DNA from: Marinobacter halotolerans | GTDB lineage: Bacteria; Pseudomonadota; Gammaproteobacteria; Pseudomonadales; Oleiphilaceae | Direction of reading: 5' to 3' | Assembly (NCBI RefSeq): GCF_008795985.1 | Contig: NZ_VMHP01000001.1 | Coordinates: 1,612,001 to 1,676,000, forward strand | Length of the DNA: 64,000 nucleotides | In this document: one piece after another, positions 49,661 through 56,555 of the stretch | Position numbering within the stretch: the stretch's first letter is position 1 | Layout of the letters: every line of letters begins with the position of its first letter | Notes under the pieces: model-generated | The model's database searches: none | Told to the model about the DNA's origin: nothing | Seen by the model: only the letters and a program-made list of their open reading frames with translations | Position numbers and translations under genes: made by a program

Positions 49661-51457
49661 ATGAAGCCTATAACTTGTGGCCTTGTTGGTTGTTTGTTGA
49701 TGCTGTTGTCAGCGGCGGCGAACTTTGCCCATGGGGCAGATTACGCTGTTGACTGGATTAAGGCGCCGAGCGGCGGTCTGACGCTTCAAGAAGTCAGGAC
49801 CCTGCCCGACGCCCGTTGGAGCCAGGTCCCCGCAGGCGAAACGTTGAACGCCGGTTTTGACGCCGATGACATATGGGTGCGCCTTACCCTCCCTGCTGCC
49901 CAGTTCGAGCGCTATCTCGAGATCGGCTATCCTTTGCTGGATTATGTCCGGTTGGATTGGGTCAGCGCCGGCGAGCGGCTGTCGCAGTTTGAAACCGGCG
50001 ATCGCGTGGCTTTCGATTCTCGCCCTGTGCGTCATCGAAATTTTCTGTTCCCGGTTCCTCAGACGGAAGAACCAGTCACCGCCTACATTCGGGTACAATC
50101 CGAAGGAGCTGTGCAGGTGCCGATTGACGTCAGCGACACCGCTGATCTGATTGCCTCTGAACAGATCGATTACGGATGGCAGGCTTTGTTTCTCGGCATC
50201 ATGATTGCCATGGCGGTCTACAACGCCTTCGTGATGTTGTTGGTCCGTAATCCCGCCTATTTCTGGTACGTGCTGACGGTGGTTGCGTCCGCGCTTGCGA
50301 TCATGAATCTGAATGGCCTTACCTTTCAATGGTTCTGGCCCGATTCACCCATCATGAACCGATATTTCACGGGCCCGGTGGTGGCCGCAAATATCCTGTT
50401 TGCAGCCTTTTTTGCAATGAGTTTTCTGTCCCTTCGACGATTCAGCCCCTGGTCCTATCGGGTTATGCAGGCCGTCGTCGTTGTCTCTCTTTTCGGTATC
50501 GTTTTTGGAATTTTTGGCGACTATCAGTCTTCTGCGGTTTTCGTCAGTGTGCTGACAATGCTGGTGACCTTGCTGACATTCATTATTGGCCTGGTTGCAT
50601 GGCGGAAAGGACAGGTGTTGGCAAAATATTACGTGATTGCATGGTCTCCCCTTTTATTGGGGCACCTGGTAAATGCCGCCAGCAAGATTGGGGTGATTCC
50701 GCGTAGTGACCTGACCGATGTTGCACCGCAGATCGGTGTGGCTCTGGAGGTGACGCTGATGTCCTTTGCCCTGGCTTCCCGCATCAGTCTTGAACGCAAG
50801 CGTCGCCAGCAGGCCCAAGAACGGACGCTGGAAGTTCAGCGTCAGGCTAATCAGACTCTGGAAGCCCGGGTCCAGGCCCGGACCGAGGAACTGGAACAGG
50901 TGAATGACCGGCTCAAGGCCATGACCATAACCGATGGCCTGACCCAGGTAGCCAACCGGCGCCGCTTTGACGACTGCCTGGCAACGGAATTCAATCGCGC
51001 CTGTCGTCAAGGCTATCCGCTTAGCGTAATCCTCATGGATATTGATCATTTCAAGAAGCTGAACGATAACCATGGTCACCTGATCGGGGATGACTGCCTT
51101 ATCAGCGTGGCGTCAGCCTGCAGTGAGCTTATCCATCGGTCCGGTGATCTCCTGGCCCGCTATGGCGGTGAGGAGTTTGTGGTTCTGCTGCCGGATACCC
51201 CCGAAGCTGGCGCACTGGCGGTGGCTGAACGCCTCAGGCAGGCCGCTGCCTCGGTGCCTCTGCCCGCCGGAAGCGACGGGCAGCCGCTCTCGCTCACCAT
51301 CAGTCTGGGCGTTGCCACTGCCATTCCCACCCGAAACCAGGTGGCAACTGACCTGGTGAGGCATGCGGACGAGGCGCTTTATGCGGCCAAGGACGCCGGG
51401 CGCAACCGGGTCATGGTGTTCCGTGAATCCGGCTGCGAGGCGGCAGAACCGGTCTGA
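49661..51457 (+). CDS. Diguanylate cyclase with 7TMR-DISM sensor
   Basis: A 598-residue protein makes c-di-GMP in response to an envelope signal. It has a signal peptide (about 1-25), a periplasmic 7TMR-DISM domain, seven membrane helices (about 180-390), a coiled coil rich in Gln and Arg, and a C-terminal GGDEF domain. The active site is intact: YGGEEF near 501-506. An RSGD inhibition site five residues upstream indicates product feedback control. The sensor architecture is shared with the hybrid kinase at 25267-27672. It is divergent from the DUF1653 gene and converges on the haemoglobin gene nine bp away. Confidence 0.92.
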   Translation: MKPITCGLVGCLLMLLSAAANFAHGADYAVDWIKAPSGGLTLQEVRTLPDARWSQVPAGETLNAGFDADDIWVRLTLPAAQFERYLEIGYPLLDYVRLDWVSAGERLSQFETGDRVAFDSRPVRHRNFLFPVPQTEEPVTAYIRVQSEGAVQVPIDVSDTADLIASEQIDYGWQALFLGIMIAMAVYNAFVMLLVRNPAYFWYVLTVVASALAIMNLNGLTFQWFWPDSPIMNRYFTGPVVAANILFAAFFAMSFLSLRRFSPWSYRVMQAVVVVSLFGIVFGIFGDYQSSAVFVSVLTMLVTLLTFIIGLVAWRKGQVLAKYYVIAWSPLLLGHLVNAASKIGVIPRSDLTDVAPQIGVALEVTLMSFALASRISLERKRRQQAQERTLEVQRQANQTLEARVQARTEELEQVNDRLKAMTITDGLTQVANRRRFDDCLATEFNRACRQGYPLSVILMDIDHFKKLNDNHGHLIGDDCLISVASACSELIHRSGDLLARYGGEEFVVLLPDTPEAGALAVAERLRQAAASVPLPAGSDGQPLSLTISLGVATAIPTRNQVATDLVRHADEALYAAKDAGRNRVMVFRESGCEAAEPV

Positions 51458-51466
51458 TCGGTCTGA

Positions 51467-51910
51467 TCAAAGGTTGCGGATGTCCGGGTACATGGGCACC
51501 AGACGCTTGATCAGCCGGTTCTGGGCGCTGACCGGCACGCCGTTTTCTTCCATCGCCAGAATCAGGTTCTCTGCCAGGGCGTTGAACTCCGTATCGGTAA
51601 TGTTCATGTCGGAATGGCTCTCCCGCATGCCCCGGCCGGTGTAGGTGCAGGGGCCGCCGCTCACGCTGCACAGCTGGTCTGTGAGGTTGGTGTGGAACTG
51701 GGACACATCAATACCGGCGAAGTGTTCGTTGATCCGTTCGTCCTCGACAATCAGGTATAGCAGATCTTCCACGATAGTGGCGATGCCCCTGCGCTCGCCG
51801 AGCTGCTGGTAGAGCTCTGGTGACGAATCGGTGTCAGCGTTGCTGCTGAGGGTCTGGCACCCGCTGAGCAGCACGGAGGCGAGAACAAGAGTCAGAATAT
51901 AAGCTTTCAT
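51467..51910 (-). CDS. Lipidated truncated haemoglobin (group 1-like)
   Basis: From ATG 51910 the product is 147 residues. A lipoprotein signal ends in LLSGC with Cys18, followed by a truncated-globin fold: ELYQQLGERRGIATIVEDLLY (Tyr52 at the expected B10), FAGIDVSQF and GRGMRESHSDM with proximal His99. Two cysteines (81 and 88), in CSVSGGPC, could form a disulfide in an oxidising compartment. The predicted site is the envelope, not the cytoplasm, which is unusual for this family. It may bind O2 or NO. It is the last gene of a leftward cluster, 16 bp after DUF3034. Confidence 0.82.
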   Translation of the reverse strand: MKAYILTLVLASVLLSGCQTLSSNADTDSSPELYQQLGERRGIATIVEDLLYLIVEDERINEHFAGIDVSQFHTNLTDQLCSVSGGPCTYTGRGMRESHSDMNITDTEFNALAENLILAMEENGVPVSAQNRLIKRLVPMYPDIRNL

Positions 51911-51926
51911 GGTGTCCTCCGGTGAA

Positions 51927-52808
51927 TCAGAAACTGGCCTGCAGGGAGAGGTAGGCGCCGGATTGGTCTTGCAGGGTGGCAACGTCACCGAGGTTGACCC
52001 ACGCGGCGGTCACCGACACCCGACGATCCGGCACCCAGGCCACGAACACGTCCCACCAGTCATCTTCCGTGGCAAAGCCGAGGTTGTCCGGTTTCTGGCG
52101 ATATTCGGTGCCCACCAGCCACTGGCGGCTCAGGAACAGGCTGACACTGCCCTCGGCCATGGCTTCGTAACTGTCGTTGCGGTCGCCGCCGAAACCCAGC
52201 AGGCCGCCCTGGTTGGCTTTGGTGGCCCGAAGGGTGCCGTTCACCAGCAGGTTGCGGCCGGCAATGGCGGCAAAAAACAGTTTGCTGCCGCTGAGATAGA
52301 AGTCGGCGCCTGTGTCGTCCCGGGAACCGATGGCTTCGGGCACCGTGTATTCACGATTCTGTTTGTATTGCAGGCCTGCCGACCATTGGCCCCAGGAGCT
52401 GTAAAGCACATCCCCCACCAATCGCACTTTCAGGCCTGCCACATCCTGCACCAGCTCCTCCTCTTCCAGGCCAAAGCCGTTCTTGAGGGTGAACACCAGT
52501 GAATCCAGGTCCAGTGTCTGCCTTGCAAACGTCAGCTCCACCCGGTTTTTCCAGGTAACGCCAGCGCCGGTGACGTTCAGCGAATAGTCGTCGGTTTCGG
52601 CCCGCGACAGCGTCACTGTGCCGCCCCATTCTTCATCACTGGCGTAGCCGTTCAGCAGGGCCCAGGGAGACAGGCCGCCACCGGCACTGCCCTCAATGGA
52701 TGTCACGCCACCAGTGGCCCATAGGCGACTCCCAACATCCGCCACAGCGGGGGCGGATGAGGCCAGTATCAGTAAGCCAGTGGCGAGAGTGCTCAGGTAG
52801 TTTTTCAT
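51927..52808 (-). CDS. DUF3034-family outer-membrane-like protein
   Basis: A 293-residue exported protein with a signal peptide (cleavage near Ala23) and mature DVGSRLWATGGVTSIEGSAGGG. It continues with alternating amphipathic strands typical of an outer-membrane beta-barrel and ends in LSLQASF, with C-terminal Phe. I recognise the DUF3034 family, uncharacterised. Its ATG overlaps the stop of the GGDEF/EAL gene (ATGA), and the haemoglobin gene follows 16 bp later, so it is translationally coupled in the cluster. It may be a channel or surface partner of the haemoglobin. Confidence 0.82.
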   Translation of the reverse strand: MKNYLSTLATGLLILASSAPAVADVGSRLWATGGVTSIEGSAGGGLSPWALLNGYASDEEWGGTVTLSRAETDDYSLNVTGAGVTWKNRVELTFARQTLDLDSLVFTLKNGFGLEEEELVQDVAGLKVRLVGDVLYSSWGQWSAGLQYKQNREYTVPEAIGSRDDTGADFYLSGSKLFFAAIAGRNLLVNGTLRATKANQGGLLGFGGDRNDSYEAMAEGSVSLFLSRQWLVGTEYRQKPDNLGFATEDDWWDVFVAWVPDRRVSVTAAWVNLGDVATLQDQSGAYLSLQASF

Positions 52809-55180
52809 GGCGTCGTTTCTCCCGGGGTTTCCAGTTCCGGTTTCATGTCCTGTAGTTTGTTGACGGTCGCCAACAGGTCAGAGGCACCGACGGGACGGCT
52901 CATGTAGAAGCCCTGGCCGGTCTCGCAACCCCAGCCCTTTAGGATATGCCAGGCCTCACGGTTCTCGATGCCTTCGGCGACAATTTTCAGGCCAAGCCCA
53001 TGGGCCATATCGATCGTCGACCTGACAATCAGCTGGTCCTGGGGTTCGCTATCGAGCTTCAGCACAAAGGATTTGTCGATCTTCAGCTCCTGCACCGGCA
53101 GCTTGCGTAGCTGGGACAGTGACGAATACCCGGTACCGAAATCGTCGACAGACAGGGTGACTCCTAACTGGCGGAGCCTGCCGAGGGTTTCCAGTGCCGT
53201 TTCCGGGTCGTCCATCAGGGCGCTTTCGGTCACCTCGAGCGTTATGGCGGACATAGGCAGTTTCCAGTCCGAGAAGGCATCCGCAACCTCGTCAATCAGT
53301 TCAGGCCGGGTGAGATCCATGGTCGACAGATTGATCGCCACGCCAATATCGAGCCCGGAAGCATGCCAGTGGCTGGCGTCCTGGGCCACGCGGCGCAGAA
53401 TGTGGCGGGTGAGGTCGGTGATCTGACCGGACTGTTCTGCGAGGAAAATGAACTCTTCCGGTGAGATAAATCCCAGCTCCGGGTGAATCCAGCGCACGAG
53501 GGCCTCTACTTGCTGCAGACTGCCGTCGGCCATGGCCAGCTTGGGCTGATAGTTCATGTGCAGACCCATATCGGCAATGGCCGAGGTCAGGTCCGAAATA
53601 ATCTGCAGCTCTCGCAGGTGGTCTTCGTCCCTGCCCGGCTGATAATGAGTCACCCGCTGGCGGGTGGACTGGGCCAGCTCAAAGGTCAGATTCAGCCGCC
53701 GACGGACCTGGTCGGTGTCCTGGGCGTCTTCCGGCAGTTGCAGTGAAACCATGGTGCAGCGTAGGGCGAACGGGGTGTTATCGATCATCAGCGGCGCCTG
53801 CACAGCGTCCAGAAGCTGGTGGGCCAACGCGTTCAGGGCTTCGCCCGTGCAGGCGTCGGCCAGCATCAGGAATTCACCGCCGCCGGTGCGGGCCAGTTCC
53901 GAGTGGTCGGGCAGTTCATGGCGCAGCCGGTCTGCCACAGCCTGAAGCACTTTGTCGCCAAACGCCAGGCCCAGAGTATCGTTGATATTGGACAGCTCAT
54001 TGATGCGCAGACCAAACAGGCGGTAGGACTGATTCTCGCTGAACCCTTCCCGCACGCTGTTCAGGAAGGCGTGGGCATTGGGCAGGCCGGTAATTTCGTC
54101 GTGGCTGGCCGCGTAACGTATCTGTGCTTCCCGGTCCTTGAGTTTCTCCAGCATGTCCCCCAGTGCATGTCGCAGTTCCTCCAGTTCACCGCCCGCCCGG
54201 ATGCGGGGAGGTTCCGGGGATGCGCCATCGCCAATGGATTTGGCGTATTCGGCCAGCGCAAGTACAGGTCTGCCCAGGCTACGGGCGACGATCAGCGCAA
54301 TCAGCGCTGCCAGAATCAACACGCCGCTAATCAGCAACAGAATTTCGATGGCCCGCTTGTAATAGGCGGCCAGGCTGGCATCACGGTTGATCAGCAGAAG
54401 CAGCTGCAGACTGGTTTGCGGGTCGTCGGACAGTATAAGAATGCGGGTGAAAAAATGCGGGCTGCTGACAAAACGCGAGCCCATCTGATTCTCGGCACTG
54501 ACGCCGGCCAGCTCGCGGAGCCTGCCGTCGGACATGGCCGAGTCGTCGGAGAGAAACTGGAAGTTATCGTCTCCGGGCAGTTTGGCGCGATAGCGTACTT
54601 CCGTGCCACTAAGGCGTTCGATAATGTCCGCCACTTCCTCGCCCAGTTCGAAACCGGCGATCAATTGCGCCCGCAATCCTGGCGCTTCCACCGGGAGCGT
54701 GACCAGTTCGATGGCACGACCATCGATCACCGTGATCTGGCTGGCAAAGCCGTTGACCTGGGCTTCCGCCAGCAGCTTGAGGGTTTCCGCCCGCTGCCTG
54801 AGGTTTTCAGGGGGTGTACTGGCAGTGGCCAGTACCTGGCTATCGCTACCGATGATCACGGCAAATCGGGCGCCGACGCGGCGGCTCTGGTTTTCCAGTG
54901 CACTGTCTGCCGTTGCCCGGTCGCGGCTGGCCAGGGCCGAGCGAAATCCGAAGTCCCTGACCACCACGTCCAGGCGGGACAGGATCAGGCTGGTGCGACG
55001 CTCCAGAATTTCCGCGGCTACCCGCTCGCCCAGTCGGAGCTGCTCTACAGCCCGTGCTTTTTCATCCTCAAACAAATAAAGCATCAGCAGGGCGCCGATG
55101 CTGATGCTGACCACAGCAACCAACGCCACCATAGCCGTCACGAGCCTGCCCCGAAATCCGATCCGGTTTGCTATTCCCAT
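52805..55180 (-). CDS. Membrane c-di-GMP enzyme: degenerate GGDEF plus EAL
   Basis: A protein of 791 residues. It has an N-terminal membrane helix (about 12-34), a periplasmic sensor domain of about 230 residues, a second helix (about 280-305), a HAMP-like linker, GGDEF and EAL. The GGDEF motif reads GGGEF (near 434), so cyclase activity is probably lost. The EAL domain is intact: QVEALVRW near 560, NLSTMDL, and DDFGTGYSSLSQL near 684. I infer a c-di-GMP phosphodiesterase. ATG 55180 overlaps the cupredoxin stop (TGATG), with AGGA upstream. Confidence 0.9.
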   Translation of the reverse strand: MGIANRIGFRGRLVTAMVALVAVVSISIGALLMLYLFEDEKARAVEQLRLGERVAAEILERRTSLILSRLDVVVRDFGFRSALASRDRATADSALENQSRRVGARFAVIIGSDSQVLATASTPPENLRQRAETLKLLAEAQVNGFASQITVIDGRAIELVTLPVEAPGLRAQLIAGFELGEEVADIIERLSGTEVRYRAKLPGDDNFQFLSDDSAMSDGRLRELAGVSAENQMGSRFVSSPHFFTRILILSDDPQTSLQLLLLINRDASLAAYYKRAIEILLLISGVLILAALIALIVARSLGRPVLALAEYAKSIGDGASPEPPRIRAGGELEELRHALGDMLEKLKDREAQIRYAASHDEITGLPNAHAFLNSVREGFSENQSYRLFGLRINELSNINDTLGLAFGDKVLQAVADRLRHELPDHSELARTGGGEFLMLADACTGEALNALAHQLLDAVQAPLMIDNTPFALRCTMVSLQLPEDAQDTDQVRRRLNLTFELAQSTRQRVTHYQPGRDEDHLRELQIISDLTSAIADMGLHMNYQPKLAMADGSLQQVEALVRWIHPELGFISPEEFIFLAEQSGQITDLTRHILRRVAQDASHWHASGLDIGVAINLSTMDLTRPELIDEVADAFSDWKLPMSAITLEVTESALMDDPETALETLGRLRQLGVTLSVDDFGTGYSSLSQLRKLPVQELKIDKSFVLKLDSEPQDQLIVRSTIDMAHGLGLKIVAEGIENREAWHILKGWGCETGQGFYMSRPVGASDLLATVNKLQDMKPELETPGETTP

Positions 55181-55845
55181 CACAGATCCTGGAAGCGTTT
55201 TTGTAAACCGTCCAGTCGCCCCTTTTCCGGACGTTCCAGCTTGAGGTCCAGGGCCAGCTCTAAGGGGCCGGAGGACGGAATACTGGCCGTCACATCGACG
55301 GTTTGCGTGGTGTTCTGCAACCTGTCATGCCAAAGGCTGAAGTCCAGCTTCCCGTCGGCCATGGCCGACACGCTGGCAGGAAGACGGATGGCGGCCATGC
55401 CGTCCGGCCCCGTGCGGGCCGTCAGGGCGCTTTCGGTAACCAGAATAAAGCCCTGCATCTGGTCATGAATGTTGCATCCAACTTCCACAACGCCGGTTTT
55501 GTCAAACAGGATGGGTTCTTCGGGCTGGCCTGCAAAGAGCTCAATATTGAAGGATTTGGCGGGCGAGAATGAATACACGTGATGCTGGGTGTTATCCCGA
55601 TTGGGGAAATCGACCTTCGATCCTCTGGGAACGACCAGAGAATGCGGCCGGAATTCTCGGCCTTTCTGGATCATTTCGGCGCTGGAGGGCTCGGCGGCTT
55701 GGCCGTGATTGATTATAACCCGGGCGTCCTCGACGGGTTCCCCGGTCGAGCTGTCTACGATTCTGACCGAAAGCGTCGTCGGCTCCGCTGCCAGTGCAAG
55801 GGGCGCCATGGTCAGCAATAGCGGAACAATCCAGTTTTTGAACAT
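55180..55845 (-). CDS. Exported cupredoxin-like protein ('methylamine utilization' type)
   Basis: A 221-residue secreted protein with signal peptide to about Ala20, then a Big-like segment (VRIVDSSTGEPVEDARVIINHG) and a plastocyanin-like domain. Candidate blue-copper ligands are His88/His89 (NTQHHVYSF), Cys124, His127 and Met130 (GCNIHDQM), so a periplasmic electron carrier or copper-binding sensor is likely. Similar genes are labelled methylamine utilization protein, but no mau pathway is present. ATG 55845 is preferred over GTG 55857. The upstream unknown gene stops 23 bp before, and the GGDEF/EAL gene overlaps its stop. Confidence 0.85.
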   Translation of the reverse strand: MFKNWIVPLLLTMAPLALAAEPTTLSVRIVDSSTGEPVEDARVIINHGQAAEPSSAEMIQKGREFRPHSLVVPRGSKVDFPNRDNTQHHVYSFSPAKSFNIELFAGQPEEPILFDKTGVVEVGCNIHDQMQGFILVTESALTARTGPDGMAAIRLPASVSAMADGKLDFSLWHDRLQNTTQTVDVTASIPSSGPLELALDLKLERPEKGRLDGLQKRFQDL

Positions 55846-55868
55846 CGGTATGACCACTCGCCTGTCAA

Positions 55869-56555
55869 CTACTCAACGCCCCCCAGAGAAAGGCGTATAT
55901 GATTGCGATCCAGCAGATTGTCCCAGTACTGCTTCATCCAGTCCCACGCTGCATTCCTTGTCTGTTCTACGAACGGATCCAGATTCAGTTCGTAATAGTC
56001 CGGTGTGCCTGCAATCTGCAGAACGGTGACAGTGATGGATTGGTCCAGCTCGTTGGCAAAGGGCTCACCAATGAGCTGATGTGCCAGCAGGTTGGCCCTG
56101 GTTGCCTCCACATCCACCAGTTCACTGGCGCGGGTACAGCGGTTGTTCTCACACATCTCTTCCATTAAACGGTGGCACAGGTAGGCACGAATCAGCAGTC
56201 CCCCCAGGCCGTCATAGCGTACCAGCAATACAGAGGGCTGAGTAAAGTAACCAATTGCAGCTTTTATGAATGGCGCGAACAATTCCGATTTGCCGGCTTC
56301 GGCGGCACAGGCTTCCACACACTCGATCAGTCGGGGGGCCATCTCAATGTACTCGAGGGCAAACTGAAACAGGCAGCTGGCGGGCTGGTACCCCTCGATG
56401 GCGATGGTAGACGGCAGCGAGAGGGCACTCTCCTGCATCTGCCTCAGGAAGGTGCCAGAGCGTGCTTCCTGGCGCCTCGCCTGATCAATAATGTCTAGCA
56501 CAGCCTTCGGTGTCATTTGAGGAGATGCCAATATCTGAACGGAATGGGGTCGCAA
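55869..56555 (-). CDS. Hypothetical protein, first gene of the cupredoxin/haemoglobin cluster
   Basis: A 228-residue soluble, mainly helical protein without signal peptide or membrane segment. It is rich in Leu, Ala, Glu and Cys (CVEACAAEAG, CHRLMEEMCENNRCTRAS). I recognise no family. The likely start is TTG 56555, because GGGAGG lies just upstream at 4-5 bases; ATG 56516 lacks a ribosome site. The cupredoxin gene begins 23 bp after its stop, so they are probably co-transcribed. Its cluster suggests a redox or c-di-GMP-linked role, an inference only. Confidence 0.6.
   Translation of the reverse strand: MRPHSVQILASPQMTPKAVLDIIDQARRQEARSGTFLRQMQESALSLPSTIAIEGYQPASCLFQFALEYIEMAPRLIECVEACAAEAGKSELFAPFIKAAIGYFTQPSVLLVRYDGLGGLLIRAYLCHRLMEEMCENNRCTRASELVDVEATRANLLAHQLIGEPFANELDQSITVTVLQIAGTPDYYELNLDPFVEQTRNAAWDWMKQYWDNLLDRNHIRLSLGGVE

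Follow-up and report, generated by a model that had tools for sequence, protein, structure and literature searches.

A widespread gene cluster joining a predicted cupredoxin, a GGDEF-EAL transducer, a predicted DUF3034 barrel and an exported truncated haemoglobin

To our knowledge, it is not known how most enzymes of cyclic di-GMP (c-di-GMP) sense conditions outside the inner membrane. In the Vibrio autoinducer-2 receptor, the kinase LuxQ is read through periplasmic LuxP. Two further systems, as far as the available text of each report goes, are NspS-MbaA of Vibrio, which leads from polyamine to c-di-GMP and has its GGDEF-EAL enzyme under the control of a periplasmic protein (PMC8967002), and the iron sensor IsmP (PA2072), where the CHASE4 domain is itself the binding site of iron, which changes the contact with ImcA (PMC10904736). 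Here we describe a cluster of four genes, encoding a cupredoxin, a GGDEF-EAL transducer, a DUF3034 protein and a truncated haemoglobin, in a 64,000-nucleotide stretch of Marinobacter halotolerans (contig NZ_VMHP01000001.1, positions 1,612,001 to 1,676,000), hereafter the window. The cluster is real and widespread, and in the literature searched, which was mostly open access and judged by titles and abstract openings, there is so far no description of the set, nor any of a cupredoxin, a Cache domain and GGDEF in combination.

All five minus-strand open reading frames (ORFs) of the run at window positions 51467-56555 are present with the predicted ends, and their coordinates bear out the original prediction of a leftward run with tight junctions. 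The cupredoxin/EAL junction is a TGATG overlap and the EAL/DUF3034 junction an ATGA overlap, and the remaining two are gaps of 16 and 23 bp. The GGDEF/EAL gene starts with GTG (end 55183), with an alternative ATG at 55180. The features are as follows.

51467..51910, minus strand: exported group-1-type truncated haemoglobin, predicted lipoprotein (Pfam Bac_globin, PDB alignment, 118 loci)
51927..52808, minus strand: DUF3034 protein, predicted 12-stranded outer-membrane beta-barrel (Pfam, AlphaFold2, PDB barrels)
52805..55183, minus strand: inner-membrane transducer with a dCache_3-like periplasmic domain, HAMP, GGDEF (GGGEF) and EAL (Pfam, model)
55180..55845, minus strand: secreted protein with a predicted type-1 copper site, the cupredoxin (ligands His88, Cys124, His127 and Met130)
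55869..56555, minus strand: 228-aa protein of no recognised family, TTG start; a Marinobacter-only neighbour outside the core

A DUF3034 profile run over named contigs gave at least 562 confirmed stretches, in organisms including many Pseudomonas, Halomonas-type and marine bacteria. The best 80 were analyzed, and this sample leans to close relatives because the best-scoring stretches were kept. By a strict test, 71 of the 80 carry cupredoxin, EAL, DUF3034 and globin genes in that order and on the same strand; these loci belong to the Pseudomonadaceae (30), Halomonadaceae (12), Marinobacteraceae (9), Lysobacteraceae (8), Idiomarinaceae (5), Shewanellaceae (2), Chromatiaceae (2), Granulosicoccaceae (1) and Porticoccaceae (1), with one given no family. 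All four genes are also present in L045, L055, L069 and L090, where the strict test failed on ORF extents, and the EAL gene of L091 is in pieces. Cupredoxin and EAL are both missing from L049 and EAL from L083, L070 starts inside DUF3034 at a contig edge, and L103 has no EAL or cupredoxin in the 2.2 kb before DUF3034. The sensor profile has 20 matches in its own genome, of which one is full length and 19 cover the HAMP-side part only, yet cupredoxin-sensor pairing recurs in 24 family codes; the four-gene synteny is therefore far above chance, and chance clustering is ruled out. In L140, L154, L157, L163, L166 and L167, cupredoxin-EAL and DUF3034-globin stand as divergent pairs, as if they were two modules.

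Of the five genes joined in the original prediction, four have a conserved order. The 228-aa gene and an upstream MATE gene occur in 9 of the 80 loci, all Marinobacter, and the core is thus reduced to the four adjacent genes; for these, orthologues are not scattered, and the lack of adjacency that would have counted against the original prediction is not seen. The 228-aa ORF (55869..56555) has zero matches in Pfam and NCBIfam, and Marinobacter are the closest named relatives of both this protein and the cupredoxin. A convergent gene for a 7TMR-DISM diguanylate cyclase (window 49661-51457) adjoins the other end of the cluster, and a GGDEF/EAL-profile match has the equivalent place and direction in Marinobacter loci L032, L034, L035 and L036.

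The protein encoded at 55180..55845 is predicted to carry a type-1 copper site. Its His, Cys, His and Met ligands are present nearly throughout the cluster alignment (H88 in 114/114; C124, H127 and M130 in 113/114, with one gap) and invariant in a 19-row alignment that spans histidine kinase (HK), cyclase and kinase loci too. The window protein itself scores below threshold for Cupredoxin_1 (20.1 bits, cut-off 27), and relative L121 lies above the cut-off for Copper-bind PF00127 (23.9 vs 21.2). At E<=0.1 the Pfam matches are weak ones to Cupredoxin_1, DUF7382 and CarboxypepD_reg, with none to a solute-binding family. Database names of the relatives are methylamine utilization protein or plastocyanin. 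Cupredoxin homologues in L182, L183 and L184 adjoin di-haem CCP_MauG genes (a Pfam assignment for L182 and L184, judged by eye for L183), followed in L182 by a hybrid kinase that matches the same sensor less strongly, and a distant homologue (L124:5931-11861) lies near a cytochrome c of SoxA/TsdA type and a COX1/FixO oxidase pair.

The transducer matches Pfam EAL at 6.1e-69, plus GGDEF and HAMP. Its EAL domain is predicted to be a c-di-GMP phosphodiesterase: E560, N618, E650, D680, D681, K701 and E737 are kept in 110 of 110 relatives and Q757 in 109, and we take these to be metal, substrate and catalytic residues. The degenerate GGDEF of the original prediction stands beside an intact EAL, with GGGEF in the window and an exact GGDEF in just 20 of the 110. 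The periplasmic domain is below threshold for dCache_3 (17.5 bits, cut-off 25.7), a family that matches 64 of 66 aligned sensors at E<=0.01. Its AlphaFold2 model (pLDDT, the predicted local distance difference test, 92.6) has a Cache fold, and its structure matches are headed by LuxQ and other Cache domains. Ranks 1 to 4 in VIA-align are all LuxQ domains, one of them LuxP-bound, with a second LuxP complex at rank 8; the modelled sensor thus resembles LuxQ most, clearly by VIA-align and not by Foldseek order. A second GGDEF-EAL gene directly precedes the cupredoxin gene in Pseudomonas loci L053, L057, L060, L065, L067, L071, L077 and L091, and the second gene matches the same sensor type in L091, L132 and L136.

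The output of the transducer varies from locus to locus. In a phylum sample of 398 genomes, the cupredoxin profile (E<=1e-20) marked 61 places in 56 genomes, and 46 of these matches adjoin, within 1 kb, a dCache_3-like membrane transducer of the same sensor type. The outputs are GGDEF-EAL in 43, cyclase in 2 and Ser/Thr kinase in 1, and 30 of the 43 GGDEF-EAL loci also have DUF3034 and globin (the window counted by hand). Among 16 cupredoxin loci hand-picked from the upper class-search list, minus those already in the set (L120 is also in the phylum sample), ten adjoin a transducer by the 1-kb rule, with HK (L112), cyclase (L113, L116, L117), GGDEF-EAL (L114, L115, L118, L120) or Ser/Thr kinase (L121, L123) output. 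Pfam confirms the output in eight of these ten (L115 and L123 lie outside the scan), plus L021 and L122, and the cyclases are of class III. It follows that the cupredoxin and sensor type stay and the output is exchanged. On a quick tree of 101 cupredoxins, labels combining output and DUF3034 presence need 22 changes, including 4 for cyclase (at least 2 on starred branches) and 2 for kinase; labels on single rows say little.

The window DUF3034 protein matches Pfam DUF3034 at 3.6e-106, and its AlphaFold2 model (pLDDT 84.7) is a 12-stranded barrel whose PDB matches are barrels. A signal-like start, antiparallel strands and a C-terminal Phe are those of a predicted outer-membrane barrel. In L069 a single ORF joins EAL and DUF3034, which may be a frameshift artefact. 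Divergent DUF3034 genes stand without the rest of the cluster in L027 (6447-10128), L029 (615-3321) and L028 (4149-8589), each near a PAS/sigma-54 activator (assigned by Pfam for L027 and L029 and by eye for L028), and that of L027 is also near a Pyr_redox_2 flavoprotein.

The window globin matches Pfam Bac_globin (1.7e-13, 51.3 bits vs a cut-off of 21), aligns in the PDB to the Tetrahymena truncated haemoglobin, and has an N-terminal lipobox-like LLSGC (by eye), with Cys18 as the predicted lipoprotein cysteine. Mapping on the Tetrahymena structure alignment gives a proximal His99, distal Leu51, Phe72 and Leu76, and Cys81 and Cys88; we take Leu51, Phe72, Leu76 and His99 to be positions B10, E7, E11 and F8. 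Among 118 cluster globins, which are non-independent and include near-copies, His99, Cys81 and Cys88 are invariant (118/118), and the distal residues are apolar with few exceptions: L 91, V 12, I 12, T 2 and N 1 at B10; L 66, F 47, V 4 and I 1 at E7; and L 99, F 13, I 4 and M 2 at E11. A polar network of Tyr at B10 and Gln at E7 and E11 is typical of group 1 truncated haemoglobins, though not universal, and is missing from the cluster globins, with B10 Tyr in 0/118. Class-wide, the 30 globins that best match the Tetrahymena protein have B10 Tyr in 30/30, E7 Gln in 30/30 and E11 Gln in 29/30, and none of the 30 has the Cys pair.

We note, however, that the cluster globins are not alone in having an apolar B10, because B10 Tyr is also missing from 18 of 21 globin rows at 20 more distant, hand-picked loci (18 of all 51 off-cluster rows). 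Five of these distant globins have the Cys pair (L215, L216, L218, L224 and L231), and four of the five begin with an export signal or lipobox (by eye); the L231 gene is ~10 kb from a DUF3034 gene on the same contig. A strict lipobox pattern is found in 90 of the 118 cluster globins, and the other 28 include near-lipoboxes and plain signal peptides. The cluster globins are set apart by having export, an apolar pocket and the Cys pair together, and an exported haemoglobin of this description is unnamed in the titles and abstract openings of the truncated-haemoglobin literature searched (periplasm/lipoprotein, GGDEF, c-di-GMP). A disulfide between Cys81 and Cys88 in the periplasm is plausible. 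With an apolar pocket and a proximal His, a haem protein is poorly suited to stable O2 binding but can still take NO or CO, and the residues at B10, E7 and E11 argue against tight O2 binding here, while proving neither NO nor CO as ligand.

Upstream sequences were scanned in 114 of 115 regions with consensus patterns and estimated gene starts, at <=2 mismatches and against a shuffle mean, and nothing convincing was found. Counts were 11 vs 8.3 for FNR/Anr, 7 vs 2.0 for RpoN (a small excess), 9 vs 10.7 for CRP and 0 vs 4.0 for RpoE, and NsrR, CueR, Fur and one FleQ-like pattern gave 0 sites vs 0 in shuffles. Promoter- and terminator-like sites within the window are no more numerous than in shuffles. 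O2 or NO as the stimulus, as first suggested, is unsupported. The distal pocket is apolar, and FNR-, NsrR- and CueR-like sites are not prominent upstream.

With moderate confidence, we propose that the products of the four core genes make up a receptor spanning the envelope, in which the state of a periplasmic copper protein governs c-di-GMP hydrolysis. The cupredoxin would be its input protein in the periplasm, and the dCache_3-like domain would read the copper occupancy or redox state of this protein in the way that LuxQ reads LuxP and MbaA reads NspS. The signal would pass from sensor through HAMP to the EAL domain, which would degrade c-di-GMP, and the mostly degenerate GGDEF domain is probably regulatory. 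The DUF3034 barrel and the globin, usually lipidated, may belong to a second, outer-membrane module with the task of supplying or conditioning the signal. It would most likely do so by taking in or binding some small ligand, or through electron exchange with the cupredoxin. The gene set and its synteny, the variation in output, the kept copper, haem and catalytic residues and the predicted folds are our observations; co-transcription, direct cupredoxin-sensor contact, the direction of the response and the nature of the stimulus are inference, as is any action of cupredoxin and globin on the sensor. The envelope redox or NO/O2 sensing unit of the original prediction survives in part: a periplasmic protein feeding a Cache sensor fits the LuxQ fold match and the varying outputs, and the 228-aa gene drops out as a member.

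Co-variation, measured by mirror-tree partial distance correlations over 59 non-redundant clusters out of 109, speaks for links between the envelope proteins. The partial r is 0.41 for DUF3034-EAL, 0.40 for DUF3034-globin, 0.36 for EAL-sensor and 0.29 for cupredoxin-DUF3034, and lower for cupredoxin-globin (0.18), globin-sensor (0.15), globin-EAL (0.10) and DUF3034-sensor (0.08). It offers little for direct contact between cupredoxin and sensor, whose r of 0.11 (p 0.053) is no better than the 0.12 of cupredoxin-EAL, and a specific co-variation of this pair was rejected as not convincing.

Other observations likewise weigh against the proposed receptor. Foldseek places chemoreceptors, DctB and PctA first for the sensor model, with LuxQ at rank 48. 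No cupredoxin-sensor fusion occurs among the ORFs of loci L017-L184, and 15 of the 61 phylum cupredoxin matches have no adjacent transducer by the 1-kb rule, 2 of them with DUF3034 and globin and 13 with neither. In a class sample of 321 genomes, DUF3034 is found in 16, cupredoxin homologues (E<=0.001) in 74 and Bac_globin of any kind in 138, and all four genes are together in 8 of the 16 (the window, L018, L019, L020, L024, L025, L022 in another order and L017 with broken copies). In L027-L030, none of the other three genes lies near DUF3034. Elsewhere in this sample, L021 has a cupredoxin with a kinase-type transducer and its globin elsewhere, L026 has no transducer, and L023 and L031 end at contig ends.

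The sensory reading remains the best supported, and its main rival, which we consider possible but unlikely, is an envelope redox enzyme in which cupredoxin and globin exchange electrons, the globin reduces or oxidises NO, peroxide or sulfide, and the phosphodiesterase is co-regulated or senses by-products. Electron carriage is the main role of cupredoxins, and the homologues beside di-haem peroxidase genes (L182, L184) or near a cbb3-like oxidase pair (L124) suggest electron transfer. Also in favour of this reading, L026, L083 and L160 have cupredoxin, DUF3034 and globin with no transducer adjoining. A signalling partner is nevertheless the commoner constant, as 46 of the 61 cupredoxin matches adjoin a transducer and 16 of the 46 do so without DUF3034 or globin. 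A copper sensing or handling system, with the barrel passing copper, the cupredoxin binding it, c-di-GMP shifting with high or low copper and the globin guarding against copper-driven radicals, appears doubtful: a type-1 site usually binds copper tightly, as a cofactor, the match of the barrel is generic, and no CueR-like site was found in the 114 upstream regions. That these are envelope genes with no relation or joint function, which a shared promoter or common descent has held together, is very improbable. In its favour, overlapping operon genes can persist by descent, and the full set is missing from half of the DUF3034-bearing class-sample genomes; against it, nine named families show the same gene order, and the two pairs are found again, in divergent arrangement, in three other family codes.

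Returning to the receptor reading, we tentatively extend it beyond this cluster. The periplasmic cupredoxin may be an interchangeable sensory subunit serving dCache transducers of at least four output kinds, to which outer-membrane barrels and, in one branch, an exported globin with an apolar pocket would be added to complete a trans-envelope relay. Such a relay would pass information on copper, redox or NO to signalling by c-di-GMP, cyclic nucleotides or kinases. The cluster gives one widespread c-di-GMP enzyme a candidate input, a copper protein beside which the sensor type is constant and the output domain is not; DUF3034 can be assigned a predicted fold and cellular location, and exported haemoglobins that combine an apolar pocket with a Cys pair stand out as a kind.

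Among described systems, the cluster is like NspS-MbaA in its predicted pairing of a periplasmic protein with a GGDEF-EAL enzyme; NspS is a polyamine-binding periplasmic binding protein, unlike the cupredoxin, and no cupredoxin, globin or barrel is named in the available text (PMC8967002). IsmP differs in that the metal is on the CHASE4 domain itself, and that paper does not contain the word copper (PMC10904736). The likeness to LuxP-LuxQ lies in the VIA-align fold match of the sensor model, but here the partner is a copper protein, the output is EAL, and a barrel and a globin are added; in contrast to both Vibrio systems, the partner is not a solute-binding protein. The globin is like group 1 truncated haemoglobins in its Bac_globin match, proximal His and Tetrahymena PDB match, and unlike them in being exported and usually lipidated, with a Leu/Phe/Leu rather than Tyr/Gln/Gln pocket and an invariant Cys pair. 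The cupredoxin shares with type-1 copper proteins (plastocyanin/azurin; 5fc9) its His, Cys, His and Met ligands and a weak Cupredoxin_1 match, and differs from them in an extra N-terminal stretch (weak CarboxypepD_reg), a C-terminal region, and a usual gene partner that is a signal transducer.

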